Origin: Rosettibacter firmus | Lineage (GTDB): Bacteria; Bacteroidota; Ignavibacteria; Ignavibacteriales; Melioribacteraceae | Length of the DNA stretch: 64,000 nucleotides | Assembly (NCBI RefSeq): GCF_036860695.1 | Contig: NZ_JAYKGJ010000001.1 | Location: forward strand, 1,054,001-1,118,000 | Direction of reading: 5' to 3' | Shown: positions 13,297 through 37,157 of the stretch, in pieces | Position numbering within the stretch: position 1 is the first letter of the stretch | How the letters are laid out: each line of letters starts with the position of its first letter | Position numbers and translations under genes: made by a program | The notes under the pieces: model-generated | The model's database searches: none | What the model was told of the DNA's origin: nothing | The model's input: only the letters and a program-made list of their open reading frames with translations

Positions 13297-13860
13297 ATGG
13301 AACTCTCACAAGAAGAGAAAAAAATCCTTCTTAAAGCTGCACGCACTTCAATAAGTTCAATTTTTACTGATGAAAAGTTACCGCAAGTCGATTATGAAAA
13401 ATATCCAGCATTAAAATCACATGCAGGAGCATTTGTTACATTAACAGAACATGGTCGACTGCGTGGATGCATTGGATATATAACTTCTGATAAACCTCTT
13501 TACGAAACAGTTTGTGATGCAGCTATAAGTGCTGCTATAAATGATCCACGCTTTCCCCCTGTAAGAGAATCTGAACTTGATGATATCGAGATTGAAATCT
13601 CAATTCTATCTGAGCCTTTTCCTCTCAACAGTTATGACGATATCATTATAGGAAAGCATGGTTTGATATTAGAAGAAAAAGGGAGACGGGGCTTACTTCT
13701 TCCTCAAGTTCCAATTGAACACAATATGAACAAAGAACAATATCTTGATGCTATCTGTCAAAAAACAGGTTTTCCTGCTGGCTACTGGAGAACTAAACAA
13801 TTAAAATTAAGTGGTTTTACAGCACTTGTATTTAATGAAAAAGAACTGGAGGAAAAATGA
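13297..13860 (+). CDS. amrA: AMMECR1-domain protein (AmmeMemoRadiSam system protein A)
   Basis: A 187-residue AMMECR1-domain protein with the hallmark LRGCIG at 55-60, followed by DPRFPPVRESELDDIEIEISILSEP and RGLLLPQVP, the conserved family surface. Bacterial homologues are called AmmeMemoRadiSam protein A and are usually encoded with a MEMO protein (B) and a radical SAM enzyme. Here B follows directly with a 4-base ATGA overlap, but no radical SAM gene is present in the window. The biochemical role is not established. Confidence 0.92.
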   Translation: MELSQEEKKILLKAARTSISSIFTDEKLPQVDYEKYPALKSHAGAFVTLTEHGRLRGCIGYITSDKPLYETVCDAAISAAINDPRFPPVRESELDDIEIEISILSEPFPLNSYDDIIIGKHGLILEEKGRRGLLLPQVPIEHNMNKEQYLDAICQKTGFPAGYWRTKQLKLSGFTALVFNEKELEEK

Positions 13861-14675
13861 AACAAGTAAGAGAGCCATCTGTTGCAGGAATGTTCTATCC
13901 TTCTTCTCCTTCAAAATTAAGAGAAGAGATTCAAATTCTTTTAGATACATCAAAGCTATCAGAAAATATAGATAATATTCTGGGAATTATAGCACCACAT
14001 GCAGGATATATATATTCAGGAAAAACTGCCGCATATGCTTATAATGCAATTAAAGGTAAAAATTATAATACTGTAATTATTATTTCACCAAGTCATCGTG
14101 AATATTTTGCAGGAATTTCTATATATAATGGAGACGCATATAAAACTCCTTTAGGAGAAGTGCCAATCAATAAAAATATCTCTTCGCAATTAACAGCTGG
14201 TAGCAAAATTATTTTTGAAGGGATTCAGGGGCATCGTGCTGAACATGCAGTTGAAGTTCAAATACCTTTTCTTCAAACTGTTCTTGAAAACTTTTCGATT
14301 GTTCCAATTGTTCTTGGCGATCAAAATCGTGTATTTGTTTATGAACTTGCAAACTCGCTTTCAAAAGTAGTGGATGAAAATACATTAATTGTAGCCAGTT
14401 CAGATTTATCACATTACTATTCAAAAAGAACAGCTGATGAATTAGATTCAATTGTAGAAAAACATATTTCAAACTTCGATTACGATGGACTTCAAAAAGA
14501 TTTAGAAAATAATAAATGCGAAGCATGCGGAGGCGGTGCTATCGTTGCATTAATGAGAACAGCCGACTTAATAAACAAAAGAAAATCTAAAGTTCTTCAT
14601 CGTTCAGATTCGGGAGATGTTTCAGGGGACTTTTCAGAAGTTGTTGGTTATCTTTCCGCTGCAATTTATAATTAA
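13857..14675 (+). CDS. amrB: MEMO-family protein (AmmeMemoRadiSam system protein B)
   Basis: A 272-residue cytoplasmic protein with the class III extradiol-dioxygenase-like fold of the MEMO family. It starts REPSVAGMFYP, as family members do. The metal-site residues known from human MEMO1 are visible: His48 (APHAGY), His80 (SPSH), His186 (SSDLSHY) and Cys224 (ACGGGA), with EHAVEVQIPFLQ at 129-140. Its start overlaps the AMMECR1 stop, implying translational coupling. A second, exported and divergent MEMO homologue is encoded at 25312-26364. Confidence 0.92.
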   Translation: MKQVREPSVAGMFYPSSPSKLREEIQILLDTSKLSENIDNILGIIAPHAGYIYSGKTAAYAYNAIKGKNYNTVIIISPSHREYFAGISIYNGDAYKTPLGEVPINKNISSQLTAGSKIIFEGIQGHRAEHAVEVQIPFLQTVLENFSIVPIVLGDQNRVFVYELANSLSKVVDENTLIVASSDLSHYYSKRTADELDSIVEKHISNFDYDGLQKDLENNKCEACGGGAIVALMRTADLINKRKSKVLHRSDSGDVSGDFSEVVGYLSAAIYN

Positions 14676-23372: not shown

Positions 23373-23503
23373 TCTCTTTTATTTTATCCAAAATACAATT
23401 TTTTATTAGATTTAGTTCAAAAAACATATTACTAAACTTTAACTTCTAAATATGTTTCTAATTCATTAAGTTTAAGCAGTGAATTTTGGAAGGAGAATAC
23501 AAA

Positions 23504-23953
23504 ATGAGATTTGCAAAGTACTATTTAATTGTTTTTATATCATTAATATTTTCTGGATGTGCTGCTGTTATTTTACAGCCGGCAGATTTTTCCTGGCCTA
23601 TAGAAAATGCACTCAAAGTAGACGAAAAAGGATTTATTAAAGAAGATCGCTACACATTTTCAATAAACGTAAAACGAATTTTTTATGAAGAGCATAAAGA
23701 TTCTAATTTAGCACTTGGTAAAGTAATTAGAATAATTAGAAATAAAGATGGTTATTATTTTATTACAGCTTCTAATTTCAAAAATGTATATGTATTTTTC
23801 CCGGTAGAAGGTGGAATGAAATTAATAAATAAAATTAAGATTTCTGAAACAGAATCTTTAAATCAACCTGCATTTAATCAAAAAGCACCTTATATTGAAT
23901 TAATTGATAACTCAAAAAAATTTTTACTGAATCATAAAGGTATTGTGAGGTAA
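23504..23953 (+). CDS. Small lipoprotein of unknown function
   Basis: A 149-residue lipoprotein starting MRFAKYYLIVF with lipobox FSGC (Cys19) and a single beta-rich domain (FSWPIENALKVDEKGFIKEDRY ... VYVFFPVEGGMK). The ATG at 23504 is preceded by GGAAGGAG; the longer frame from a TTG at 23486 overlaps that ribosome binding site and is rejected. The next gene starts 5 bases after its stop, so the two proteins are probably made together and may work together at the cell envelope. Family not recognised. Confidence 0.72.
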   Translation: MRFAKYYLIVFISLIFSGCAAVILQPADFSWPIENALKVDEKGFIKEDRYTFSINVKRIFYEEHKDSNLALGKVIRIIRNKDGYYFITASNFKNVYVFFPVEGGMKLINKIKISETESLNQPAFNQKAPYIELIDNSKKFLLNHKGIVR

Positions 23954-23958
23954 AAAGT

Positions 23959-25212
23959 ATGAAAACAGGTATTATAACAACTTTTATAATTGCTCTATTA
24001 ATATTTTCTGTAAGCAATGCACAATCAGATTTTGAAAAAACACAAAATTTCAAAAAGCAATACAAAATTCTCGAAGATGCAATTAAAGATGCATCATCAC
24101 TCGAAGAATGCAACGTTATTGGCGAAAGTATAATAAAATTTAAAAATGAATTTATTGCAGACAAAGAATTATTAGACAAAGCATTATATCCAGATAATTT
24201 TGAAAGTGCTTTTGAAAAACTTGAACGTGCTCTTGAAATTCGAAAAGGTGATTTTACTCAAATAACAGAATTAAGAACTGAAATTGGAGAATTAAAAACA
24301 CGAGTAACCGAATTAAGCGAAGAGAACCAGAATCTACTGGCTCAAATTAAAGCATTGAATTTACAGGTTAAAAAAGATGCTGCAACAATTGCTTCTTTAA
24401 AAAGATTGATAGCACAATTAAAAGCAAATATTCAACAAAGGGACATGCTTGTAAGAGATATTATTGATAGTTTATTAACAGAATTTGTGAAAACCCCAGC
24501 ATCATTAAACGAAGCCGAAAAACAGGCAATTATTACAAAAGTAGATAGTCGTAATTTATTTTATAACATCGAAAGAACTATAATGGATAATATTCAGTTC
24601 ATGAAGGTAACACAAATGACTCCAAACGATTTACGTGAAATGAAAAAGCAGTATAGAGAATTTAATAAATTATGGAAACAAATTGGTCCAAGATTAAGTG
24701 ATGTATATTTAACAAGACAGGATAAAGTTGCACAAATAGCAAATATCGATGGTATGTTTTACGAATGGAACTCCAGATTAAACGATGAAATATGGACACA
24801 GGTAAATCAATTATTCAGAGAAAAAAATTTAGCTGTTTTACCTTTCCGATCTGGTGAACAATTTGTAAATAGCATTTATGCATTTATTGATGATGAAATA
24901 AAAAATCTCGGAGTAAAAAATAAAGATGAATCTTTAAAAACATTTTACACTTTTACAGATAGTGTTTATTTCAAGACTGTTCAACCAGTATGGATTCCAA
25001 TTCTTATAGAAAATAACTTGATGACCGAAGAGAATAAAGATTCTATAGAAGCAAAAATAGCATTGTGGAAAGAAAAGCTATCTCCACCTTCAAAATTCTA
25101 CTGGATTTATTATTTAGCAGGTGGTATTGTTATTGTTGCATTGATAGTCACTTATTACATTAAAACAAGAAACAAACAAAAAGTTATTCCAGAACAACAA
25201 GAAGAAGCATAG
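23959..25212 (+). CDS. Exported coiled-coil protein with C-terminal membrane anchor
   Basis: A 417-residue protein: signal peptide (cleavage near SNA-Q22), a helical region, and a strong coiled coil at about 98-165 (ELRTEIGELKTRVTELSEE). Next is a helical domain at about 170-370. A transmembrane segment follows at about 378-400 (FYWIYYLAGGIVIVALIVTYY) with a basic stop-transfer and a short Gln/Glu tail. The topology puts the coiled coil in the periplasm, anchored in the inner membrane. Together with the lipoprotein encoded 5 bases upstream it might bridge the two membranes. Family not recognised. Confidence 0.75.
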   Translation: MKTGIITTFIIALLIFSVSNAQSDFEKTQNFKKQYKILEDAIKDASSLEECNVIGESIIKFKNEFIADKELLDKALYPDNFESAFEKLERALEIRKGDFTQITELRTEIGELKTRVTELSEENQNLLAQIKALNLQVKKDAATIASLKRLIAQLKANIQQRDMLVRDIIDSLLTEFVKTPASLNEAEKQAIITKVDSRNLFYNIERTIMDNIQFMKVTQMTPNDLREMKKQYREFNKLWKQIGPRLSDVYLTRQDKVAQIANIDGMFYEWNSRLNDEIWTQVNQLFREKNLAVLPFRSGEQFVNSIYAFIDDEIKNLGVKNKDESLKTFYTFTDSVYFKTVQPVWIPILIENNLMTEENKDSIEAKIALWKEKLSPPSKFYWIYYLAGGIVIVALIVTYYIKTRNKQKVIPEQQEEA

Positions 25213-25231
25213 TTTTAAATAAATTCCAGAT

Positions 25232-25279
25232 AATCCCGCATTGAATTTATATACAAGTTCATGCGGGATTTATTTTTTA
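25232..25279 (+). terminator. Rho-independent terminator
   Basis: Perfect 10-bp stem AATCCCGCAT/ATGCGGGATT with a 19-base loop, followed by TATTTTTTA. It ends the plus-strand lipoprotein/coiled-coil operon, opposite the convergent glucan-utilisation island. Confidence 0.85.
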
Positions 25280-25311
25280 CAGGACATTTTTAATTGAAAT
25301 AAAAACAATCT

Positions 25312-26364
25312 TTATTCAAGATAGAAACCCAGCGTAAAAAATCCTACCCAGTGTTTCAAAGAAAAAGGAGCGGTTAAACCCATAGACGATTTCTTGAATG
25401 GCAAAACTTTTTCTGAAAATGTATCTGAATAATTAAACAATCTCCCCTTAATTCTTCCTAAATTAAGATGATCATTTATATTCATTAAAGTTATTAAACC
25501 AAAAATTATTGGATATCTTCCACACCATAAAGGAATAGCCTTTTCATTTTTATCATCAGGAATAATTTCCGAAGCCAGACCCTGTATTTTTGTTTTGTTT
25601 AATATTCCAACAAGATAATTATTAATAATCTCTTTATCCTGTTCGGTTGCTTTTTGATGTGCAGATAAATCTAATCCATAAGGTGAATTATTAAAATCTT
25701 CTCCATAGTGATTAGCATCATTCGACATTAAAATAAAAATATCTTTACCTAATTTAAGTTTGTTTGTTTTTATATAATCTGAAATTATCAGTGATAAATC
25801 ACGAGAAATTTTTTCTACATTTTCCATTGACATCTGTGTTACCATAATTGGAGTAATTTTTACTTCAGGATTATAAAATTGAAGAAATGGAATTAGAGCT
25901 TCGATAGAATGTTCAATTTCATGTGCTTTGTTATTAATTACAAAATATTTTTTATTGAGTTTTGATTTTATAATGTCTCTAAGCGGCGATATCTTAACAT
26001 CATTATAAATTCCTTTCCATGCTTTATACTCATCAAATATAAGAACATCAGTAGGAGGATTTAATTCCTTTCTAACTGTTCCATGAGTAACACCAAATAT
26101 TATTACTTCTTTTGCATTTATTAACTTAAAAAGAGGATAATAAACTTTTCCAGCATACAAATAATCATCGTGAACAGAAATTGCAGCAATAAGATTTTCT
26201 TTTTCAAACTCTGGATTTTCATAAATACTATCCAGATAAGAAATAAAATTTTTCATTTCATTGTAATCCCAGCAAAATCCAATATTATCTCGAACTGGAC
26301 GTAAATCCTGAGCAAATGAATTACTTAGAATCAATAAACTAAATGTTATTATTTTCTTAATCAT
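25312..26364 (-). CDS. Exported, divergent MEMO-family protein
   Basis: A 350-residue protein with a signal peptide (cleavage near SFA-Q19), unusual for this family of cytoplasmic proteins. The four metal-site positions of human MEMO1 can be matched: His65 (SVHDDYLYAG), His94 (GVTHGT), His219 (SNDANHYG) and Cys281 (WCGRYP, compare CGRHP in human MEMO1); EHSIEALIPFLQ is at 151-162. The last 45 residues are an extra hydrophobic or beta-rich segment. It is the last gene of the minus-strand glycosidase run, 26 bases after the GH/CBM gene. Substrate unknown; a periplasmic or outer-membrane metalloenzyme is possible. Confidence 0.8.
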   Translation of the reverse strand: MIKKIITFSLLILSNSFAQDLRPVRDNIGFCWDYNEMKNFISYLDSIYENPEFEKENLIAAISVHDDYLYAGKVYYPLFKLINAKEVIIFGVTHGTVRKELNPPTDVLIFDEYKAWKGIYNDVKISPLRDIIKSKLNKKYFVINNKAHEIEHSIEALIPFLQFYNPEVKITPIMVTQMSMENVEKISRDLSLIISDYIKTNKLKLGKDIFILMSNDANHYGEDFNNSPYGLDLSAHQKATEQDKEIINNYLVGILNKTKIQGLASEIIPDDKNEKAIPLWCGRYPIIFGLITLMNINDHLNLGRIKGRLFNYSDTFSEKVLPFKKSSMGLTAPFSLKHWVGFFTLGFYLE

Positions 26365-26390
26365 ACTTACAATTAATCTTAACTTGAGTT

Positions 26391-29336
26391 TTATTTCATC
26401 AAAATTAATTTTTTAGTTGTTATATGATTACCAGCATTTAATGTATAAAAATATATTCCGCTTGTGATATTTTCTGCATTAAGTTTATATTCATAAAAGC
26501 CTGCAGGTTTAAATTCATTTACAAGTGTTTGCACCTCTCTACCAAGCACATCATAAAGTTTAATTGTAACATTTGACTCATCTGGAATTTGATATCTTAT
26601 AACAGTACTGCTATTAAATGGATTAGGAAAATTTTGTTCAAGTTTATATTCTTGTGGAATAGCACGACTCTCTTTAAGCTCTGTTCTTATTCCTTCACCA
26701 TAACATTCAATTCCAAACCACAATGTTTTATAAACTGTTTGATCTAAATTTAATAGAAAGTGATTAATTGTATATGGTTTTAAAACAAATGCTTGAGATG
26801 AAATCTCTTTTCCTTTATTATCAAGTGGATAAATCTTGATTGAATCTGCATAAATCATCAAATCGAGTTTTATTTTAAATGGATAAATTCGAGTTGGTGA
26901 ATGTCCCCAATTATTATTCAAAGTTGTAGTTCCATTCCATATCATTTCAGTATTTTGAATTTTTGTCCCTAATGTAATCAAAGATTTTTTAGATGAAGAG
27001 AGATTATAATTATCGAGCGAAAGCCATGTTAAAGTTGCAAAATCATCCTGAGATAAAATATCTTCAATATACATCTCGCCAATTCTTTTCCCTTTTAATT
27101 TAGAAAGATATCCTGTTATTCCATTAAATTTTTGAGTGGCAATAGTTAGTGTTCCATCACTCATGTTCCACACAATTTCATCGGTATCTGTTTTATATAA
27201 ATTTCCTGCAACTTGAGGAAGCTGTTTAAAATCAGTTGTATTTGTAGAAAAATAATTTTCGGTTTTGATTGAGTGAACAAGAGAAATTTTTCTATCATAA
27301 AATGAAGGACCATACCAGTTTGATGCATCGTTCTTTGGAAGTACATATAAAGTATCAATTGTGTAGTTAATTTTAATTGGATTAGCAGAAGGTTTAATCA
27401 AGCCATTTCTAAAAACATAAGAAATTGTGGGAAAGAAAGACATTAATACAGAATTTCTATTTATACCAAAGAATCCGCCAATGAAATCTTTTTCCCATTC
27501 AAATGCTTCACTGTAATCGAAATACATAAATGCATCTGCATCATTAAAAGATGAATAACCAGCACTAAATAAAATTGATTCTACTTGATAACGATTTGGG
27601 AATGGATGATTATATTCGCTTACTGTAAAAGGTTTTCCTGCTATAGGGACACCTGCATAGAGATAAGGTATTGTTCCACCATTAACATCTTTTACCATTG
27701 GAGTATTATTGATTAACCAGTTTGTAGATGACCAGGGTTCACCAGGAAATTGAGGATGATCCCAGTATGCATGATTATCAACATAATCTGCATCCGACAT
27801 CGAAGCTAAATCTGCTGCACCAACATTCCAGTTTGTACCAACTACTGGTACTTTAACTCCCAGTGTATCTTTTAAATACGATATCATTTCTTTGAAATAA
27901 TTTCTTTCAAGTGTAATATAAAATTCGGACATATCCTTTACTCTCTGATCAGAATACTGAACACATTTTGCATAATCAATCCTTGCGATATTTTTTAATT
28001 CGAGAGATTCATTCTCTTCTAATCCAATAACACCTGCTTTTGTAAAACTAATTTCATCAAACCAGAATGTTCCTGTTTCTTTTCCTAAACTGAAAGAGAG
28101 TCTTGTATGTCCAGCATTATTTTCAGGAGCTTTAATACTAAATGAAAATGTTTGCCAGTTTGTATTCAAATTTATTGAATACCAGCCATAAGAATTCCAT
28201 GGACTATTATCATTCATTATACTCACATTAATTTCTCTTAGAGAATCTGAACGTGCAGCAAAAGAAAGAGTGTAAGATGAATCTTTAATAATTGTTGCAG
28301 ATGGCATTTTGAATTGAATATGCCAATCTGTACCAGTAGCTTTATTAACAAAAACTTTGAAACTATAAGCTCCTTTAAATGCAACAGAATTGTCTCGTGC
28401 TGTATCTGCATCTGCTCCATTATGTTCTTCCAATGCCCAGTAATTTCTTGGATTGGGATTTTCAAATCCACCATTTTTAATTTGTTCATTTTGACCAAAT
28501 GGAATTATTCCTTTATTCCATGCATTCTGTAAATTCTGAGTTGATTTATATTTATCAAATAAAAATTCATTCCATAAACTATCAAGCATTTTAGAATAAT
28601 AATAAGGAAGCACACCACCTTTTGATATTGGTTTTAGTTGATTATCTCTCCAGAATTTATACAAAGAATTTTCATTAGTAATTTCAACCATTGCCATTAC
28701 AGGATCATCAACAAGTGGTTTGCCTGTATATGGATTTATATGTTTTAAAAGTTGTTGTGCATATTCTTTATGTAATTTTTTTATATATGGATCAAAAAAA
28801 TTTACACCTTTTCCAAACTCTGGAAGTGAATCATAATCAACAACACCATCAAAAATTCTAAAAGTTCTCGACACATGGAGATTCATATTAACATAAATTC
28901 CATTTTCTTTTAATCTTGCTATTATATATTCGAGAGTATCGAGATAAGCAGGATCAATCATTCTTGTATCACTTTTACCAACAAGACTTCTTCTTGACCA
29001 GGGATTATCTAAGTGATGCATACGTACCAGATTAAAACCAAACTTTCGAAGTCTTCCAGCTAATAAACCAGCTTTATCGCGTGGCGGGAAAGCATTATCA
29101 GCACCAAAGTTCGTTCCCCAGAATCTTATTCTTTTACCAGCAACTGAAAATTTTCCTTCTGAATCAATTGAAACAAATTCATTATCATTAATTCGATTAA
29201 CTGGAAACTGTGGAAGAAATTTCTGAGTACTTGTATCACTTGAAGGAAGATAAAAATTAAAATATTCAGTAAAATTTTGTGCATTTAAATTGATTATAAG
29301 TAAGAAAATAAATAAAAGTAATTTTTTGCAAATCAT
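26391..29336 (-). CDS. T9SS-exported glycoside hydrolase (GH5-like) with CBM inserted in the barrel
   Basis: A 981-residue secreted clan GH-A-type enzyme. After the signal peptide (to about 19) a TIM barrel starts (KRIRFWGTNFGADNAFPP, FNLVRMHHLDNPW) with acid/base Glu222 in ITNENS and the probable nucleophile Glu574 in TVSEYNHP. Residues about 286-432 between these two halves look like a CBM4/9-type beta-sandwich (GGFENPNPRNYW ... FWFDEISF). A beta-rich domain follows the barrel, then a T9SS type A sorting domain from about 898 (LEQNFPNPFNSST ... KKLILMK). Substrate is probably a beta-glucan, judged from the adjoining GH5 and GH3 genes. The exact GH family is uncertain. Confidence 0.82.
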   Translation of the reverse strand: MICKKLLLFIFLLIINLNAQNFTEYFNFYLPSSDTSTQKFLPQFPVNRINDNEFVSIDSEGKFSVAGKRIRFWGTNFGADNAFPPRDKAGLLAGRLRKFGFNLVRMHHLDNPWSRRSLVGKSDTRMIDPAYLDTLEYIIARLKENGIYVNMNLHVSRTFRIFDGVVDYDSLPEFGKGVNFFDPYIKKLHKEYAQQLLKHINPYTGKPLVDDPVMAMVEITNENSLYKFWRDNQLKPISKGGVLPYYYSKMLDSLWNEFLFDKYKSTQNLQNAWNKGIIPFGQNEQIKNGGFENPNPRNYWALEEHNGADADTARDNSVAFKGAYSFKVFVNKATGTDWHIQFKMPSATIIKDSSYTLSFAARSDSLREINVSIMNDNSPWNSYGWYSINLNTNWQTFSFSIKAPENNAGHTRLSFSLGKETGTFWFDEISFTKAGVIGLEENESLELKNIARIDYAKCVQYSDQRVKDMSEFYITLERNYFKEMISYLKDTLGVKVPVVGTNWNVGAADLASMSDADYVDNHAYWDHPQFPGEPWSSTNWLINNTPMVKDVNGGTIPYLYAGVPIAGKPFTVSEYNHPFPNRYQVESILFSAGYSSFNDADAFMYFDYSEAFEWEKDFIGGFFGINRNSVLMSFFPTISYVFRNGLIKPSANPIKINYTIDTLYVLPKNDASNWYGPSFYDRKISLVHSIKTENYFSTNTTDFKQLPQVAGNLYKTDTDEIVWNMSDGTLTIATQKFNGITGYLSKLKGKRIGEMYIEDILSQDDFATLTWLSLDNYNLSSSKKSLITLGTKIQNTEMIWNGTTTLNNNWGHSPTRIYPFKIKLDLMIYADSIKIYPLDNKGKEISSQAFVLKPYTINHFLLNLDQTVYKTLWFGIECYGEGIRTELKESRAIPQEYKLEQNFPNPFNSSTVIRYQIPDESNVTIKLYDVLGREVQTLVNEFKPAGFYEYKLNAENITSGIYFYTLNAGNHITTKKLILMK

Positions 29337-29372: not shown

Positions 29373-30398
29373 TTACTTATTGAGTTGTTCAAAAATAATT
29401 GTGTTTTTTGAAATAATATAACTTCTTATTGTTTTACCAGATAAAGTTAATTCATCTTCTTTCCAGTTTCCCTGAGTATTTGCACCTGGTTTTAATGCTG
29501 CTGAACTTTCATTCTTATCCATAATTGACCAGTTACAATTTGATAGCTTATTCATCTCCATAAAATTCATCCAGATATTTGCTTCGTTCAAATCAATATT
29601 TCCATTTCCACTTGCTTCACTAATTCCATATTCAGTAACAAATAAAGGAATCCCTTTATTTAATGCTATTGTTGCTTTATTCCTTAAAAATTGTTTATGT
29701 GTACTGGAATAAAAATGCAGAGCATAAGCAACATTGTTATCATTGATTGGATTATTTGCCGCAACATCCACATCCTGTGACCAGGTGGGAGTTCCTACAA
29801 CAATTAAATTGTCGGGATCATACTGGCGAATTGTTTTAATTACTTCTTCTGCATAAGGTTTAATTACATTTGTCCACGATACCTGAAGTGGTTCATTAAA
29901 TATTTCATAAATTAAATTGGGTTTATCGCCATATTTTTGTGCAATAGTTTTAAAGAATTCCTTTGCTTGCTCTTTGTGATTTTGTGCATTATGATCGTGC
30001 CAATCAACTATAACATAAATGCCATATTTAATAGCAGCATTAATTACAGTCTCAGCTTTTTGTAATTCAAGTTGAGGATTATTTAAATAACCACCGCTTT
30101 CAACTCCAATAGCAGCACGAACTATTGTACATTTCCAATCATCTCTTAACCATTTAATTACATTTTCATTATAAAAATGTCCACCCCATTGACTCCAGAA
30201 TAAACTCATTCCCCGCAAAACAACAACGCTATCATCTTTACAATAAATTTTATTCCCCTTAACCTGAAGATTACCATATAATTCAACTACTGTTTTGGGT
30301 GTAGAGTCTGAGGAAACTATTTCACTATCGTTATTACACGATAAGGCAAAAATTATAATAGCTAAAAAAATAATTTGATGAGTTTTAATTGTTATCAT
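29373..30398 (-). CDS. GH5 endoglucanase lipoprotein (cellulase, GH5_2-like)
   Basis: A 341-residue lipoprotein (lipobox ALSC, Cys21) with a short linker and one GH5 barrel. VVVLRGMSLFWSQWGG opens the barrel, VDWHDHNAQN is typical of subfamily 2 cellulases, the acid/base is Glu169 in YEIFNEPLQVSW, and the nucleophile is Glu256 in FVTEYGIS. Predicted to cut internal beta-1,4-glucosidic bonds at the outer membrane. No CBM or T9SS tail; lipid anchoring replaces both. It lies between the GH/CBM gene and a GH3 gene, with a palindrome upstream (30408-30432). Confidence 0.9.
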   Translation of the reverse strand: MITIKTHQIIFLAIIIFALSCNNDSEIVSSDSTPKTVVELYGNLQVKGNKIYCKDDSVVVLRGMSLFWSQWGGHFYNENVIKWLRDDWKCTIVRAAIGVESGGYLNNPQLELQKAETVINAAIKYGIYVIVDWHDHNAQNHKEQAKEFFKTIAQKYGDKPNLIYEIFNEPLQVSWTNVIKPYAEEVIKTIRQYDPDNLIVVGTPTWSQDVDVAANNPINDNNVAYALHFYSSTHKQFLRNKATIALNKGIPLFVTEYGISEASGNGNIDLNEANIWMNFMEMNKLSNCNWSIMDKNESSAALKPGANTQGNWKEDELTLSGKTIRSYIISKNTIIFEQLNK

Positions 30399-30407
30399 AT
30401 TGTTATA

Positions 30408-30432
30408 CCCTGCAGATTTTAAATCTGCAGGG
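30408..30432. repeat. Perfect 12-bp inverted repeat with a 1-base centre
   Basis: CCCTGCAGATTT and AAATCTGCAGGG flank a single T, in the 41-base gap between the GH3 and GH5 genes. It is more GC-rich than its surroundings and has no T-run on the minus strand. It could be an mRNA-stabilising or processing hairpin, a palindromic intergenic repeat, or a protein-binding site. Confidence 0.7.
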
Positions 30433-30439
30433 ATTTAAT

Positions 30440-32917
30440 TTATAAAGAAACTGAATATTTTAATTTAATATCTCTTGAAGAACTTCCAACTAAAATTTCA
30501 TAATCATCTTTATCAAGCTGCCATGATCGAGATTTTTCATTATAGTATGACAGAGATTCTTTTTTAAGTTCCAAAGAAACTTTTTGAGTTTCACCAGGTT
30601 TTAGAAAAACTTTTTTAAAGGCTTTTAATTCTTTAAAAGGTCTATCAACCTTCGGATTTTTTTGACTTACATAAAGTTGAACAACTTCTGCTCCTTCGAG
30701 TGTACCTGTATTTTTCAAATCGATAGTTACTTGAAATTTATCCCCTTTATCTTCAACCATAATATTTGAATATTCAAAAGTAGTATAAGATAATCCAAAA
30801 CCAAATGGAAATAATGGTTCAATATTATTTTTATCAAAATGACGATAACCTACATAAATATCATCTGTGTAATAAGTTCTTGCAGGATATTTTTTATAAG
30901 AATCGAAGGCAGAGCAATCTTCCCATCTCTTTGGAAAAGTAACTGGTAATTTCCCAGATGGATTATAGTTACCAAATAAAACATCAACAATAGCATTACC
31001 TCCTTCTGTACCAGCAAACCACATTTCGATTACAGAATTAACTTGGTTAATCCATTTATCCATTAAAATTGGAGCACCACTTGTTAAAATAACAATTGTT
31101 TTTCTATTAACTTCTGAAATTTTTTGTATTAATTCTTCCTGTTCGCCTGGCAAAATTAAATCGGGTCTATCCATTCCTTCTGTTTCTATTTTATCTGATG
31201 TCCCTACAAATAACAAAACCACATCTGATTGTTTAGCAATATTAATAGCCTCTTTCATTAAATTCTCTGATGGAGTTTGCCAGCCTAAAATAGCAGCAGC
31301 ATTACCGGTCTTTTCATAAAATTCCATTTTAATTTTGTAAAGTTTATTTTTCTCAAGGTTTACTTTTCTCGAAATAGTCATTACAGCATGGTCTGTCCAA
31401 TCATCTATAATTAATTCATCATTAAACCACAATCTTACACCATCATCTGTTGAAGTATTAATTATAAATTCTCCACTTTCAGGAGCTTTGAGATAACCAG
31501 TCCATCTTATTGAAAAATAATTATTGCCTATTCCTTCTACAGGTTTATTATCACTCCAAATGAAAGAAATATTTTTATCGATTCTTCTAACTTTGGGTTC
31601 TCCAGATAAATCAATATTATCAAAATATTCAGCATTTACACCATTAGTTTTTTGAGTTTCATCTGTAAATAAAAACTCTTCTGGAATTGCTTTTGCGTCT
31701 CCAGGAAGTATAACTCCTGGTGCATAATTTATTTTTATGTTTTTGGGTAATTTATTTTTTAATGCTGTAAGTGGGGAAACAGGATTAATTGGAGTAACAT
31801 AAGCACTTCCACCACCACTTGTTCTTGGTATTTCAGCAGAAGGACCAATAACAGCAATTGATTTTAGTTTATTTTTATTTAATGGTAAAAGACCATTATC
31901 ATTTTTTAATAAAACAATTGATGCCAGTGCAGTTTCGTATGCTATTTTTCTATTTTCAGCACTATTAACAAGTGCGGGATTCTCTTTCCATTCAGGTGTA
32001 TCAAATAAGCCAAGTTTGAATATCACTTTTAAAATTCTTCTTACCTTTTCATCGATCTTATCAATTGATAATTCACCTGATTCTATTGCTGGTAATAGAT
32101 TTTCTTTATTCATGAAAATTCCAGTTGGCATTTCTAAATCGCATCCACCTTTGGCAGTAGGAAGTGATGAATGAACTGCACCCCAATCACTCATTACCAA
32201 TCCTTTAAATCCCCATTCTTTTTTCAATTTATCGATCAAAAGATAATTATTTTCACTTGAGAAATATTGATTAACTTTATTGTAAGCACTCATTACACAT
32301 AAAACATCTGCTTCGGTTACTGCAGCTTTAAATGCTGGAAAATAAATTTCATTCAATGCTCTTTCACTTACTAAAACATCAACAAACATTCTTTCATGTT
32401 CTTGATTATTTGCAGCAAAATGTTTTACAGTAGCAGCCACGCCTTCTTTCTGAACACCTTTGATATATTCAACTGTCATACGTGATGCAAGAAATGGATC
32501 TTCACCAAAACCTTCAAAATTTCTTCCCCACATTGGTAATCGTGCAATATTTACACATGGACCTAAAATTACATGGCGTCCTTTCCCTTTGACTTCTCTT
32601 GCAATTGCACTACCAATACCACTAATTAGCTCTGGATCCCAGGTTGCAGCCATTGCGATAGAAGATGGAAATGCAGTAGAAGCCCCCCATCTTACTCCTA
32701 CTGGACCATCTGTCATTCTTAATTCTGGAATACCGAGACGAGGGATAGGTTTGGTTGCAAAACCAGTACCGCCAAGTAAATCAATTTTTTCATCCAGGGT
32801 CATTCGTGAAAGTAAATCTTCTACACGCTTTTCAATTGGTTGATTTACATCCTGATAAGACAGTTTTGTTTGAGCTATCATACTTGATACCATTAATAAA
32901 ATTAAAAAGTATTTCAT
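30440..32917 (-). CDS. GH3 beta-glucosidase with PA14 domain
   Basis: An 825-residue exported exo-glycosidase removing terminal beta-linked sugars. Signal peptide to about 15. The (beta/alpha)8 domain has GEDPFLASR, KHFAANNQE and the nucleophile Asp244 in VMSDWGA. The alpha/beta sandwich domain is interrupted by a PA14 domain at about 426-550 (AEYFDNIDLSG ... ILGWQTPS), and the acid/base motif ETEGMDR at 578-584 follows. A fibronectin-III-like domain closes the protein. This layout is that of PA14-containing beta-glucosidases. GGAGG precedes the ATG. No T9SS tail, so it is probably periplasmic. Confidence 0.93.
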   Translation of the reverse strand: MKYFLILLMVSSMIAQTKLSYQDVNQPIEKRVEDLLSRMTLDEKIDLLGGTGFATKPIPRLGIPELRMTDGPVGVRWGASTAFPSSIAMAATWDPELISGIGSAIAREVKGKGRHVILGPCVNIARLPMWGRNFEGFGEDPFLASRMTVEYIKGVQKEGVAATVKHFAANNQEHERMFVDVLVSERALNEIYFPAFKAAVTEADVLCVMSAYNKVNQYFSSENNYLLIDKLKKEWGFKGLVMSDWGAVHSSLPTAKGGCDLEMPTGIFMNKENLLPAIESGELSIDKIDEKVRRILKVIFKLGLFDTPEWKENPALVNSAENRKIAYETALASIVLLKNDNGLLPLNKNKLKSIAVIGPSAEIPRTSGGGSAYVTPINPVSPLTALKNKLPKNIKINYAPGVILPGDAKAIPEEFLFTDETQKTNGVNAEYFDNIDLSGEPKVRRIDKNISFIWSDNKPVEGIGNNYFSIRWTGYLKAPESGEFIINTSTDDGVRLWFNDELIIDDWTDHAVMTISRKVNLEKNKLYKIKMEFYEKTGNAAAILGWQTPSENLMKEAINIAKQSDVVLLFVGTSDKIETEGMDRPDLILPGEQEELIQKISEVNRKTIVILTSGAPILMDKWINQVNSVIEMWFAGTEGGNAIVDVLFGNYNPSGKLPVTFPKRWEDCSAFDSYKKYPARTYYTDDIYVGYRHFDKNNIEPLFPFGFGLSYTTFEYSNIMVEDKGDKFQVTIDLKNTGTLEGAEVVQLYVSQKNPKVDRPFKELKAFKKVFLKPGETQKVSLELKKESLSYYNEKSRSWQLDKDDYEILVGSSSRDIKLKYSVSL

Positions 32918-32941
32918 ATACCCTCCAATAATAACTTTACT

Positions 32942-34159
32942 TCAATTTATTAATCCCAGAGCTTTCAAGTAATCGGCATTAATCGTACAATTCTTAAATT
33001 TTATATTTTCCAGTAAATCATTCAAAGCTTTTTTTACAATTTCTTTTGGAGGTTTATTTTTTCTTATTTCTTCGAAATTTTTTCTTGAGCCTTCTGCATA
33101 TTTTATTATCTCATCCCACTCTTTTGTTTTTGTAAAAGATACAACACCTCGTGTAGATTCCATTTTTTTGTATGGCCAGAAACACCAGCCAATATTATTT
33201 TTTTCAAGTAGTTCTCTAAATGATTTTATCCAGTCATTATCATTCTCACCAGATTCTCCCAGCCAGATGGGTACATCATATTTATCTCTAAAATCGATAT
33301 ATTCTTGAATCTGCTTTTGTTCTACAGGCATCCAGTATTTATGAAAAGTATATGCAAGATTTGAATCAAATGGTTCACCAAATACTTGGAAGTTTGTATT
33401 CCATTGAGCTCCGCCCAAAAAGATAATATGATTTTTATCTACAGAACGAATCGTCTCTGTAATTTTTTTATATAATGGTTCTAATAGTTTATTCAATTCT
33501 TCTTTATTCTCCAGGAAATGAGGAATTGGTTCGTTTAATAAATCATATCCTATAACAATTGTTTCATCTTTATATCTTTCGGCAATTTTCTTCCAGAGAT
33601 TTATTGTTGCTCTCTGAGCTTCATGGCTTTCAAATAAAAATGGATATCCCCAGCTATCATCAATATTATCACCTGTTTGTCCACCAGGTGCAGCATGCAT
33701 ATCAAGAATTACATATAAACCAAATTCCTTACACCAGGAAATTACATCATCTAATCTTTTAAACCCTTCTTCAAGAAAAAGATCTGGTTCATCTTCAATT
33801 AAAAATAATTTGAAGTTGAATGGAACTCTAATATGATTAAATCCAGAATTTTTAATAAACGCGATATCTTCACGTGTTATGTAATTATCACGAAATGATT
33901 TCCAGAATTTTTTTGTTTCTTCAGGTCCAATTAGTTCTTTAATTACTTCATCAATCAATCTATAAGAATTCACATTTTTAAAATGAAACATATAACCTTC
34001 AGAGTTAAGCCAGTTACCAAGATTAATTCCTTTAAGTAAAATTTCGTTACCATTGTTATCAACAAAATTTTTACCTTCTACTCTTACAAAATTTTGTGAT
34101 TGAACATGAGTATTAAATACAATCATTAATAGTAAATAAATCAACCTATATAATTTCAT
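32942..34159 (-). CDS. Exported GH5-family glucanase
   Basis: A 405-residue enzyme with signal peptide (to about 22) and a GH5 barrel: ILLKGINLGNWLNSEG, ILDMHAAPGGQ (like exo-1,3-beta-glucanase types), acid/base Glu210 in YDLLNEPIPH, and nucleophile Glu302 in IWLGESGEN. About 50 residues of helical sequence follow the barrel. The subfamily cannot be fixed by eye; the neighbours suggest a beta-glucan or oligosaccharide substrate. It lies 24 bases upstream of the PA14-GH3 gene in the same direction and 48 bases after the esterase gene. Confidence 0.88.
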   Translation of the reverse strand: MKLYRLIYLLLMIVFNTHVQSQNFVRVEGKNFVDNNGNEILLKGINLGNWLNSEGYMFHFKNVNSYRLIDEVIKELIGPEETKKFWKSFRDNYITREDIAFIKNSGFNHIRVPFNFKLFLIEDEPDLFLEEGFKRLDDVISWCKEFGLYVILDMHAAPGGQTGDNIDDSWGYPFLFESHEAQRATINLWKKIAERYKDETIVIGYDLLNEPIPHFLENKEELNKLLEPLYKKITETIRSVDKNHIIFLGGAQWNTNFQVFGEPFDSNLAYTFHKYWMPVEQKQIQEYIDFRDKYDVPIWLGESGENDNDWIKSFRELLEKNNIGWCFWPYKKMESTRGVVSFTKTKEWDEIIKYAEGSRKNFEEIRKNKPPKEIVKKALNDLLENIKFKNCTINADYLKALGLIN

Positions 34160-34207
34160 TTAAAATCTCTCACAATAAATCCAGATTAAATTAAAGCATT
34201 ATATATT

Positions 34208-34942
34208 TTACTTTCTATCTTCAAGTGATTGTTTTAAAAGCCATTCATAAATTTCGGGATTATTATAAGTCTCTGTCCACGCATCGTGTTCAGCATCGGG
34301 ATAAATTGTTAATTTTGCATTACCACCACATGCTTTTAATCTTTCAACTAAATCTTCGGATGCCTTAACTGGAACTACTGGATCTTTAGCTCCGTGAAAA
34401 GCCCATACTGGCAATTTTCCAATCATGCAAACTTCGAATAAATCACCCCAGCCACAAATTGGTATTATAGCAGCAAGTCTTTCTGGAATTTTTGCAGCCA
34501 ATCTCCATGTACCATTTCCACCCATGCTTAAACCTGTAACATAAATCCTATTCTTATCAACTTTATAGTTATTGACAATGTAATCAAGAAGAGCAATTAA
34601 ATCGTCTGTATCCCATCTTTGATTTAAAGGGCATTGAGGACTAACAACCATAAAAGGAAATTTTTTACCTTCGTCAATTAATTTAGGTGGTCCATGTTTT
34701 TTTACAAGCTGTAAATCGTTACCTCGTTCTCCAGCACCATGAAGAAAAAGAAGTAAAGGAACTTTATCTTTAGAATCATAATCATCAGGTAAATAAAGTA
34801 GATAATTAATATTAACAATTTTTCGGAACTCTGTTTTAAGTGAGTGCTGTGTTTGTCCATCAGATTTGTTTTTTACAACCATTTGTGATGAGCATGCAAA
34901 TGCAAAGATTAATGAAAATAAGATAGCTATAAATTTTTCCAT
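34208..34942 (-). CDS. Alpha/beta-hydrolase lipoprotein, probable carbohydrate esterase
   Basis: A 244-residue lipoprotein (lipobox FACS, Cys17) with an alpha/beta-hydrolase fold: oxyanion region LLFLHGAGERGND, nucleophile Ser139 in GLSMGG, Asp187 in GAKDPVVP, and His219 in DAEHDAW. The sequence is of the phospholipase/CE1-like type often found among polysaccharide-utilisation genes, where such enzymes remove acetyl or feruloyl groups. The substrate is not known. It starts 7 bases after the GH3 (BglX-like) stop, so co-translation is likely. Confidence 0.82.
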   Translation of the reverse strand: MEKFIAILFSLIFAFACSSQMVVKNKSDGQTQHSLKTEFRKIVNINYLLYLPDDYDSKDKVPLLLFLHGAGERGNDLQLVKKHGPPKLIDEGKKFPFMVVSPQCPLNQRWDTDDLIALLDYIVNNYKVDKNRIYVTGLSMGGNGTWRLAAKIPERLAAIIPICGWGDLFEVCMIGKLPVWAFHGAKDPVVPVKASEDLVERLKACGGNAKLTIYPDAEHDAWTETYNNPEIYEWLLKQSLEDRK

Positions 34943-34949
34943 TAATGCC

Positions 34950-37157
34950 TCAATCTATTAATGTAAATGATTCTTCAAGTAGCTCAACAGAATTTTTTCC
35001 TACGAAAACTTTAAAATCACCTGGTTCTACAACATAATTCATATTGATATCATAGAATTTCAATTTATCTGTGGTCAATGTAAATTCAACTCTTTTAGTC
35101 TCACCGGGTTTAAGATTAATTTTCACAAAATCTTTTAATTCTTTTACAGGTCTTGTAACACTACCAACAAGATCTCTTATGTAGAGCTGAACAACTTCGG
35201 CTCCTTCATACTTGCCAGTGTTTTTTACATCAACGCTTATTTTAATTGACTCATTCATTCTAATTTGTTTTTTATCAATAGATAAGTTAGAATATTCAAA
35301 TGTTGTATAACTCAATCCATAACCAAAAGGATATAATGGTTCATTAGAAAAATCATTATAAAAAGAAGTATATCTTGGATTAGAAGGATTGTATGGTCTT
35401 CCTGTGTTTTTATGATTGTAGTAATAAGGAATCTGTCCAACATGTTTTGGAAAAGTAACCGGAAGTTTACCACCTGGATTATAGTCACCAAATAAAACAT
35501 CGGCTATTGCATTTCCAGCTTGAATACCTAAATACCATGTTTCAAGAATAGCAGGAATATTCTCATTAATCCAATTAATTGTAAGTGGTCTACCATTCAT
35601 CAAAACAACTACTATTGGTTTACCAGTCTTATGAAGTTCTTTAATTAGATCTTCCTGAACACCGGGTAAATCAAGTGTTGCACGTGATTGAGCTTCGCCA
35701 CTCATATCTCGAGATTCACCGAGAACTACAATAGCAACTTCAGAATTCTTTACTGATTCCATTGCTTTGGTAAAACCACTTTTATCATTGCCCTTCACTG
35801 AACAACCTTCTGCAAAATTTATTTTTACATTATTACCAAGTTTATTTTTAATTCCTTCAAGAACAGTAACAACATTTTCTGGTTTACCATCTTGAGCCCA
35901 TGGACCAAGTGGATCATCTTTTGAATTTGCAAGTGGACCAACAACTGCAATTGATTTTATATTTTTATTTAATGGCAAAAGATTATTTTGATTTTTCAAT
36001 AACACAATTGATTCGAGAGCTACTTTTTTAGTAGCATCAATCATTTCTTTACTGAGCACAGTATTTTTTTCTCTTTCTGAATTACAATATTTATATGGAT
36101 TATCAAATAGGCCCAGCTTAAACTTTGCAAGCAAAACTCTTCTAACAGCATCATCTACTAATTTTAAATCTACTTTTCCTTCATTAACAAGTTCAACTAA
36201 ATGATTGAAATATGCATTGCCTTCCATATCCATATCAACTGTAGCATTAATAGCACGATATGCTGATTCTTTCAAATCCTTAGCCAATCCATGAATCACA
36301 AGTTCACCAATAGAATTCCAATCGCTAACAACAAAAGCATCGGAGTTCCATTCATCTCGTAAAATTTGAGTTAATAAAAATTTATTAGCCGAAGAAGTAA
36401 TTCCACCGAGTTCATTAAACGAAGCCATAAGAGAGCCCACACCAGCATCGACTGCAGCTTTAAATGGTCGCAAATAAATTTCTCTTAAAGTTCTTTCTGA
36501 AATATCAACAGTATTATAATCTCTTCCACCTTCGGCAGCACCATATGCAGCAAAGTGTTTAGCACATGCAAGAATTGTATTTCCAGCAGATAAATCATTT
36601 CCTTGATAACCTTTAACACGAGCAGCAGCCATTACTGAACCAAGATATGGATCTTCACCACTACCTTCAACAATTCTTCCCCATCGTGGATCTCTTGCAA
36701 TATCAACCATTGGACTGAAAGTCCAGTGAATCCCTGAAGAAGATGCTTCTATAGCCTGCATTCTTGCAGAAAATTCAACCAATTCAGGATTCCATGAACT
36801 TGCTTCGGCAATAGGAACTGGAAAAGTAGATTTAAATCCATGAATTACATCGAGTCCAAATATTAGTGGAATTTTTAATCTTGATTCTTCGATTGCAATT
36901 TTCTGTAATCTTTTTGTCTCTTCTGCACCAAAGATATTCAAAAAAGAACCAATCTTTCCCTGTCGAATTAATTCTTCGTGACCTTTAGGTTTTAGAGTTT
37001 TAGTTCCTGTCTCACTCCCTGAAGTATATTGAACAAGTTGACCAACTTTTTCTTCGAGCGTCATTAAAGAAAGAAGAGAATCAACTTTCGGAATTAAAGA
37101 TTTTTCCTGTGCGTGAATAACAACAGAAAATAATATAAGGGATAAAAATATTTTCAT
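34950..37157 (-). CDS. bglX: GH3 beta-glucosidase, BglX type
   Basis: A 735-residue periplasmic exo-glucosidase with signal peptide (cleavage near IHA-Q17) and the three-domain GH3 layout: N-terminal barrel (GLDVIHGFKSTFPVP, GRIVEGSGEDPYLGS, nucleophile Asp279 in VVSDWNS), alpha/beta sandwich (VVLGESRDMSGEAQSR), and C-terminal fibronectin-III-like domain. The pattern closely follows E. coli BglX. Expected to release glucose from beta-linked oligosaccharides made by the GH5 enzymes. GAGG precedes the ATG; it lies 17 bases after the ExoP-like GH3 gene. Confidence 0.94.
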   Translation of the reverse strand: MKIFLSLILFSVVIHAQEKSLIPKVDSLLSLMTLEEKVGQLVQYTSGSETGTKTLKPKGHEELIRQGKIGSFLNIFGAEETKRLQKIAIEESRLKIPLIFGLDVIHGFKSTFPVPIAEASSWNPELVEFSARMQAIEASSSGIHWTFSPMVDIARDPRWGRIVEGSGEDPYLGSVMAAARVKGYQGNDLSAGNTILACAKHFAAYGAAEGGRDYNTVDISERTLREIYLRPFKAAVDAGVGSLMASFNELGGITSSANKFLLTQILRDEWNSDAFVVSDWNSIGELVIHGLAKDLKESAYRAINATVDMDMEGNAYFNHLVELVNEGKVDLKLVDDAVRRVLLAKFKLGLFDNPYKYCNSEREKNTVLSKEMIDATKKVALESIVLLKNQNNLLPLNKNIKSIAVVGPLANSKDDPLGPWAQDGKPENVVTVLEGIKNKLGNNVKINFAEGCSVKGNDKSGFTKAMESVKNSEVAIVVLGESRDMSGEAQSRATLDLPGVQEDLIKELHKTGKPIVVVLMNGRPLTINWINENIPAILETWYLGIQAGNAIADVLFGDYNPGGKLPVTFPKHVGQIPYYYNHKNTGRPYNPSNPRYTSFYNDFSNEPLYPFGYGLSYTTFEYSNLSIDKKQIRMNESIKISVDVKNTGKYEGAEVVQLYIRDLVGSVTRPVKELKDFVKINLKPGETKRVEFTLTTDKLKFYDINMNYVVEPGDFKVFVGKNSVELLEESFTLID

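Follow-up and report, generated by a model that had tools for sequence, protein, structure and literature searches.

MEMO proteins are conserved from archaea to humans and have been linked to cancer, with AMMECR1 as their usual partner domain. To our knowledge, the molecular function of MEMO has not been established, and we know of no O2 chemistry demonstrated for any Memo protein. As cited in PMC7694686, Burroughs et al. 2019 (JBC 294:10211) split the PCAD-Memo superfamily into 15 families. In crystal structures of human MEMO1 the metal ligands are H49, H81 and C244, and H131, D189 and H192 lie near the metal without coordinating it; no enzymatic activity has been proven for this protein, and none was seen on standard dioxygenase substrates (PMC11081632). 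MEMO1 has been shown to bind Cu(I) and, in vitro, to limit the redox chemistry of copper (PMC9477392). In one study, AMMECR1 tops the Pfam domains linked to anaerobes (PMC13386939).

Here we describe a MEMO-family protein with an export signal, encoded away from AMMECR1. Our literature search, with Burroughs et al. 2019 outside its reach, found no description of exported bacterial MEMOs, and the exported group may already be among the families of that work. The fold and the family are already known; export, the HDD motif and independence of AMMECR1 appear to be new.

The gene, its family and its export signal

The window, a stretch of 64,000 nucleotides from Rosettibacter firmus, encodes the 350-aa protein on its minus strand (please see Table 1 for the features of the protein and its surroundings). 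It matches Pfam Memo (PF01875) with an E-value of 1.1e-21 and 77.7 bits, the cut-off being 27, and NCBIfam AmmeMemoRadiSam protein B (TIGR04336) with 1.4e-21 and 76.9 bits (cut-off 26), only residues 38-251 being aligned in the latter case. AmmeMemoRadiSam protein B is accordingly its NCBIfam label. A single-sequence search of the PDB found no match at E<=1, and a PDB search with the family profile of the exported group matched MEMO1 at 2e-9. When positions 25200-26700 were scanned for promoters and terminators, there were zero terminator-like sites and promoter-like sites were not in excess.

Table 1. Features of the exported MEMO gene, its neighbours and the comparison MEMO. Positions are those of the window.
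Feature	Position	Strand	Evidence
Exported MEMO-family protein, 350 aa	25312..26364	-	ORF, Pfam, NCBIfam, model, structure alignment
Signal peptide, residues 1-18, predicted cleavage between SFA and QD	26311..26364	-	inspection and family statistics
H65-D66-D67: first metal ligand (MEMO1 H49), then the acidic pair specific to exported MEMOs	26164..26172	-	alignment
H94: second metal ligand (MEMO1 H81)	26083..26085	-	alignment
E151-H152: pocket residues (H152 aligned with MEMO1 H131)	25909..25914	-	alignment; MEMO1 pocket from PMC11081632
D216-A-N-H219: pocket residues (MEMO1 D189, H192)	25708..25719	-	alignment
C281-G-R-Y-P: third metal ligand (MEMO1 C244)	25510..25524	-	alignment
Loop 319-337, extended relative to other MEMOs; T331 and A332 conserved	25354..25410	-	alignment, model
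C-terminal strand 338-349, with conserved H338 and W339; aligns with the MEMO1 C-terminal strand	25318..25353	-	alignment, model
Glycosidase-like protein, 981 aa, CBM_4_9 and type IX secretion tail, upstream in all three genus genomes	26391..29336	-	Pfam, synteny
Glycosidase/esterase genes (GH5, GH3, GH5, esterase, GH3), same strand as MEMO	29373..37157	-	ORFs, Pfam
Comparison: canonical cytosolic MEMO (AmmeMemoRadiSam protein B), next to AMMECR1 (13297-13860)	13857..14675	+	

By inspection, the N-terminus (MIKKIITFSLLILSNSFA followed by QD) is built like a Sec signal, with KK, a hydrophobic core and SFA before the Q. The signal peptide claimed in the preliminary description can thus be recognised in its n-, h- and c-regions. 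An N-terminal hydrophobic segment precedes the Memo domain in 80 of the 80 exported-group homologues inspected (the best 80 of 295), compared to 0 of 47 stand-alone canonical cytosolic MEMOs and 0 of 7 members of a divergent group of about 420 aa. These counts come from a simple hydrophobicity rule, a mean Kyte-Doolittle value of at least 2.0 across ten residues, rather than from SignalP; the rule splits the exported group from the cytosolic controls completely. The Sec signal peptide would direct export, with cleavage probably after A18, and the mature protein is predicted to act in the periplasm or at the envelope. In a few distant relatives a lipobox takes the place of the Sec cleavage signal. 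We also considered whether the signal could be an isolated oddity or the result of a mis-called start, and rejected both because of the signals in all 80 homologues.

Fold, metal site and phylogenetic position

The AlphaFold2 model of the protein, computed from a 61-row alignment, has a mean pLDDT of 93.9. Foldseek and VIA-align gave MEMO1 as its top match (Z 31.9 over 279 residues, 2.4 A; against iron-bound 7kq8, Z 31.8 over 279 residues, 2.5 A). The likeness to human MEMO1 (PDB 3BCZ, 7KQ8, 7L5C) covers the fold (Z about 32), the three metal ligands, the pocket corresponding to H131, D189 and H192, and the letters CGRxP. However, the two proteins share only 17% identity, and MEMO1 lacks a signal peptide, has HAG where the exported protein has HDD, and has a shorter loop before the last strand. 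The next structural matches were extradiol dioxygenases of the PCAD type (LigB, DesB and 2-aminophenol 1,6-dioxygenase) with Z of 15-17. Two of the three metal positions are His in these enzymes as well, but their third ligand is Glu where our protein has the invariant Cys281, so that the 2-His-1-Glu iron site is absent from it.

The preliminary description also gave the protein about 45 extra C-terminal residues. Residues 18 to 350 of the model align on residues 4 to 297 of MEMO1 and the C-termini therefore coincide. The median number of residues after the metal Cys is 69 in the exported group and 48 in cytosolic MEMOs; the real excess is about 21 residues and lies in the loop before the last strand. 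We rejected the 45-residue extension on the basis of this structure alignment and the length counts.

The family profile places H65, H94, H219 and C281 onto MEMO1 H49, H81, H192 and C244, and D216 onto D189. The 2-His-1-Cys ligands H65, H94 and C281 are thus present at the MEMO1 positions. All four positions that had been named as the metal site are present and near-invariant, but H219 is a pocket residue rather than a ligand, since its MEMO1 equivalent H192 does not coordinate the metal. In the 61-sequence alignment H65, D66, D67, H94, E151, H152, D216, H219 and C281 are invariant, and the residues invariant beyond the three ligands include D66, D67, E151, S153, N165, W280, H338 and W339. HDD at the first ligand was found in 44 of 44 exported-group sequences, whereas HAG takes its place in all cytosolic (24/24) and fusion (26/26) MEMOs and in human MEMO1; Ile-Asp follows the first ligand His in the divergent 420-aa group. 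The Cys motif varies inside the exported group, being CG[RK][YF][PSTA] in most members.

Randomised metal residues among homologues had been named beforehand as a finding that would count against the first reading, and they were largely not seen. The metal and pocket positions are all kept in 42 of the first 43 orthologues, the exception being the copy of a congener, G001 (L050:5404-6447). This copy has the same gene order and keeps its frame, signal and scaffold, and has lost essentially the whole metal site, with changes in all of the VHDD, THG, EHS, DANHYG and WCG stretches. Relative to the window copy, dN is 0.44 for G001 and 0.21 for G002, compared to 0.15 for the adjoining glycosidase in both; replacement-site evolution of the G001 copy is thus about twice that of the window-G002 pair. 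Either the G001 copy is decaying or it has some other use. As it is intact and bears a signal without the site, the metal is not required in every member, and this natural protein without the site offers a built-in control.

A scan of GTDB genomes gave 295 coding stretches for relatives of the exported MEMO. The best 80 of these come from Ignavibacteria (including Melioribacter and Stygiobacter), Candidatus Aminicenantes, Acidobacteriota, KSB1 and Kryptoniota. In a set of 58 related genomes, 17 besides this one have full-length orthologues, and a profile search found the exported MEMO in 34 of 79 genomes of the taxonomic family; for the phylum the count was 35 of 395 sampled genomes. The preliminary description had proposed a MEMO phylogeny with signal prediction as a check. 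In a tree of 102 domains, built by a quick method with long branches and a midpoint root, the exported group, with its signals in 80 of 80 by the hydrophobicity rule, forms one side of a branch with SH-aLRT 100. This best supported branch separates it from every other MEMO in the tree, MEMO1 included. The Cys motif had been described as closer to that of human MEMO1 than to that of the AMMECR1-linked copy in the window. This likeness is confined to the letters CGRxP, and we regard it as local because MEMO1 lies across the branch. Closeness to MEMO1 was rejected from the tree position and from the search scores, the AMMECR1-linked copy matching MEMO1 at 9e-20.

Neighbouring genes and other MEMO proteins

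The exported MEMO gene is the last of a same-strand run of glycosidase genes. It had been described as following a beta-glucanase gene by 26 bases; the gap is correct (26365-26390), but beta-glucanase is not a clear assignment for the upstream gene, whose 981-aa product has CBM_4_9, a type IX secretion tail and a GH5 match below threshold. We clustered and scanned about 100 non-redundant loci for a constant operon partner and found none; in the great majority the neighbours are unrelated to glycosidases. Among 49 close same-strand upstream neighbours the commonest class was methionyl-tRNA synthetase, with a GH3 C-terminal domain in 4 and the 981-aa family in 3, and the 48 downstream neighbours included 7 amino acid permeases and 7 methyltransferases. 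Across the orthologues, glycosidase linkage was confined to the genus and a few further genomes. In the sister genera the MEMO gene stands beside a methyltransferase and homologues of window 23959-25212 and 23486-23953, without glycosidases. As the gene keeps its place there, the glycosidases appear to have joined it and not the reverse. Together with the differing neighbours outside the genus, this gene order shows that the glycosidase operon is a local arrangement. AMMECR1 and radical SAM genes are not direct neighbours in the window, nor are they among the recurring adjacent genes across the homologues. A fixed operon partner was rejected, as only lineage-specific repeats were seen (methyltransferase, amino acid permease, methionyl-tRNA synthetase, aspartate carbamoyltransferase). 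In 16 loci of the family a small methyltransferase (L034:1024-1668 and homologues) adjoins the exported MEMO, mostly directly downstream; the window lacks it.

The genome encodes three MEMOs. The exported protein resembles the canonical one of the window in passing the TIGR04336 cut-off and in having the same metal site. Unlike that cytosolic protein, which lies beside AMMECR1, it has no AMMECR1 or radical SAM partner, carries HDD and has a longer loop. The AMMECR1-MEMO pair of the window (13297-14675) has no adjoining radical SAM gene, its canonical partner lying on another contig (G000:C4:238242-239279). The third MEMO is a MEMO-AMMECR1 fusion with a lipobox (L001:1342-2928), and in L001:159-2928 (G000:C1 about 1447933-1450702) a radical SAM protein overlaps this lipoprotein-type fusion. 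The radical SAM protein belongs to the AmmeMemoRadiSam family (373 bits) and has a twin-arginine motif at its N-terminus and a CxxCH, like that of c-type heme, before the radical SAM domain. Twin-arginine-like N-termini beside fusions were also seen in L183, L191, L195, L241, L249, L252 and L264, with CxxCH in several. S-adenosylmethionine is cytoplasmic, and an exported radical SAM enzyme would therefore be very unusual.

Signals were found in 27 of the 28 MEMO-AMMECR1 fusions examined, the remaining one being truncated at a contig end. The fusions of L236-L255, nearly all with a signal peptide, come from Aminicenantes, Acidobacteriota and others. Such exported fusions share with the exported MEMO a signal peptide or lipobox and a Memo domain whose metal site is intact; they differ from it in their AMMECR1 domain, in the HAG motif and in grouping with the canonical MEMOs in the tree. 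MEMOs with a signal are therefore not confined to one line of the family. The premise that MEMOs are cytoplasmic thus goes too far, a fusion with a lipoprotein-type signal being encoded in the same genome.

Candidate functions

Our preferred reading, which we hold to be somewhat more probable than its contrary, is that the gene product is a member of a distinct exported Memo subfamily, metal-binding and probably an enzyme. It is predicted to hold a single metal ion by H65, H94 and C281, with iron or copper as the likeliest metals. E151/H152 and D216/H219 would line the pocket, and the invariant acidic pair D66-D67 would stand beside the first ligand, replacing the Ala-Gly of other MEMOs. Because many pocket residues are invariant, we infer an enzyme, most likely with a small molecule of the envelope or the extracellular space as its substrate, and it would work alone and not within a fixed operon. 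Its chemistry need not use O2, since the many Aminicenantes and Ignavibacteria among the hosts, and the place of AMMECR1 at the head of the anaerobe-linked domains, point away from such a requirement.

The main rival, which we consider unlikely, is a periplasmic protein that binds or buffers metal by sequestering copper or iron and is not an enzyme. MEMO1 gives a precedent with Cu(I) (PMC9477392), an exported protein would be well placed to handle periplasmic metal, and conserved pathway neighbours are absent; however, the many invariant residues beyond the three ligands suggest a substrate pocket, and no metal transporter or chaperone recurs as a neighbour. Still less probable is an enzyme that breaks down polysaccharides or plant phenolics as part of the glycosidase operon, a role of the kind first suggested for this gene. 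The upstream glycosidase is kept in all three genus genomes (gaps of 26, 44 and 7 bases), GH3 genes are directly upstream in a second genome group (L042/L120, L118, L127), and the cluster holds 3 of the only 6 GH3 genes of the genome. Nevertheless, most of the roughly 100 loci place the gene beside the lineage-specific neighbours listed above, the sister genera keep its gene order without glycosidases, and G001 has kept the glycosidase yet lost the metal site. A role in polysaccharide use is thus not supported.

We give as little weight to the reading that the protein is an extra B component for the exported AmmeMemoRadiSam set of the same genome, namely the MEMO-AMMECR1 lipoprotein and the Tat-type radical SAM protein. 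The presence of that set and the NCBIfam name would both agree with it. An exported solo MEMO occurs in 5 of 6 fusion-bearing relatives, a fusion-sized MEMO frame in 23 of 29 other solo-MEMO genomes, and in G042 the fusion and the solo MEMO are two genes apart; these co-occurrence counts, however, ignore kinship. Moreover, 12 of 17 solo-MEMO relatives have no fusion, and the fusion already brings a MEMO domain of its own, in which the metal site is intact.

As an exported, stand-alone group whose site is fully conserved, the subfamily narrows the candidate substrates to periplasmic or extracellular molecules and makes AMMECR1 and radical SAM partners dispensable, and its members could be purified and assayed on their own. 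Recognising the subfamily also puts right automatic annotation, under which exported MEMOs would be labelled AmmeMemoRadiSam protein B. A broader proposal, which we offer tentatively and hold to be doubtful, is that a widespread extracytoplasmic Memo branch with its own active site (His-Asp-Asp and 2-His-1-Cys), together with the exported fusions and the Tat-signal radical SAM proteins, represents envelope Memo chemistry. If true, Memo chemistry located at the envelope could explain the role of Memo proteins.

Two further kinds of MEMO were seen among the relatives. The divergent proteins of about 420 aa (L256-L262), a fourth MEMO type from Aminicenantes, are extended at the N-terminus by about 120 residues and lack a signal; they are perhaps the RRE-Memo fusions mentioned in PMC12710340. 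In addition, G481 has a second exported MEMO, of the distant subgroup (L298:417-1571), with the PHDDY and WCGR motifs intact.
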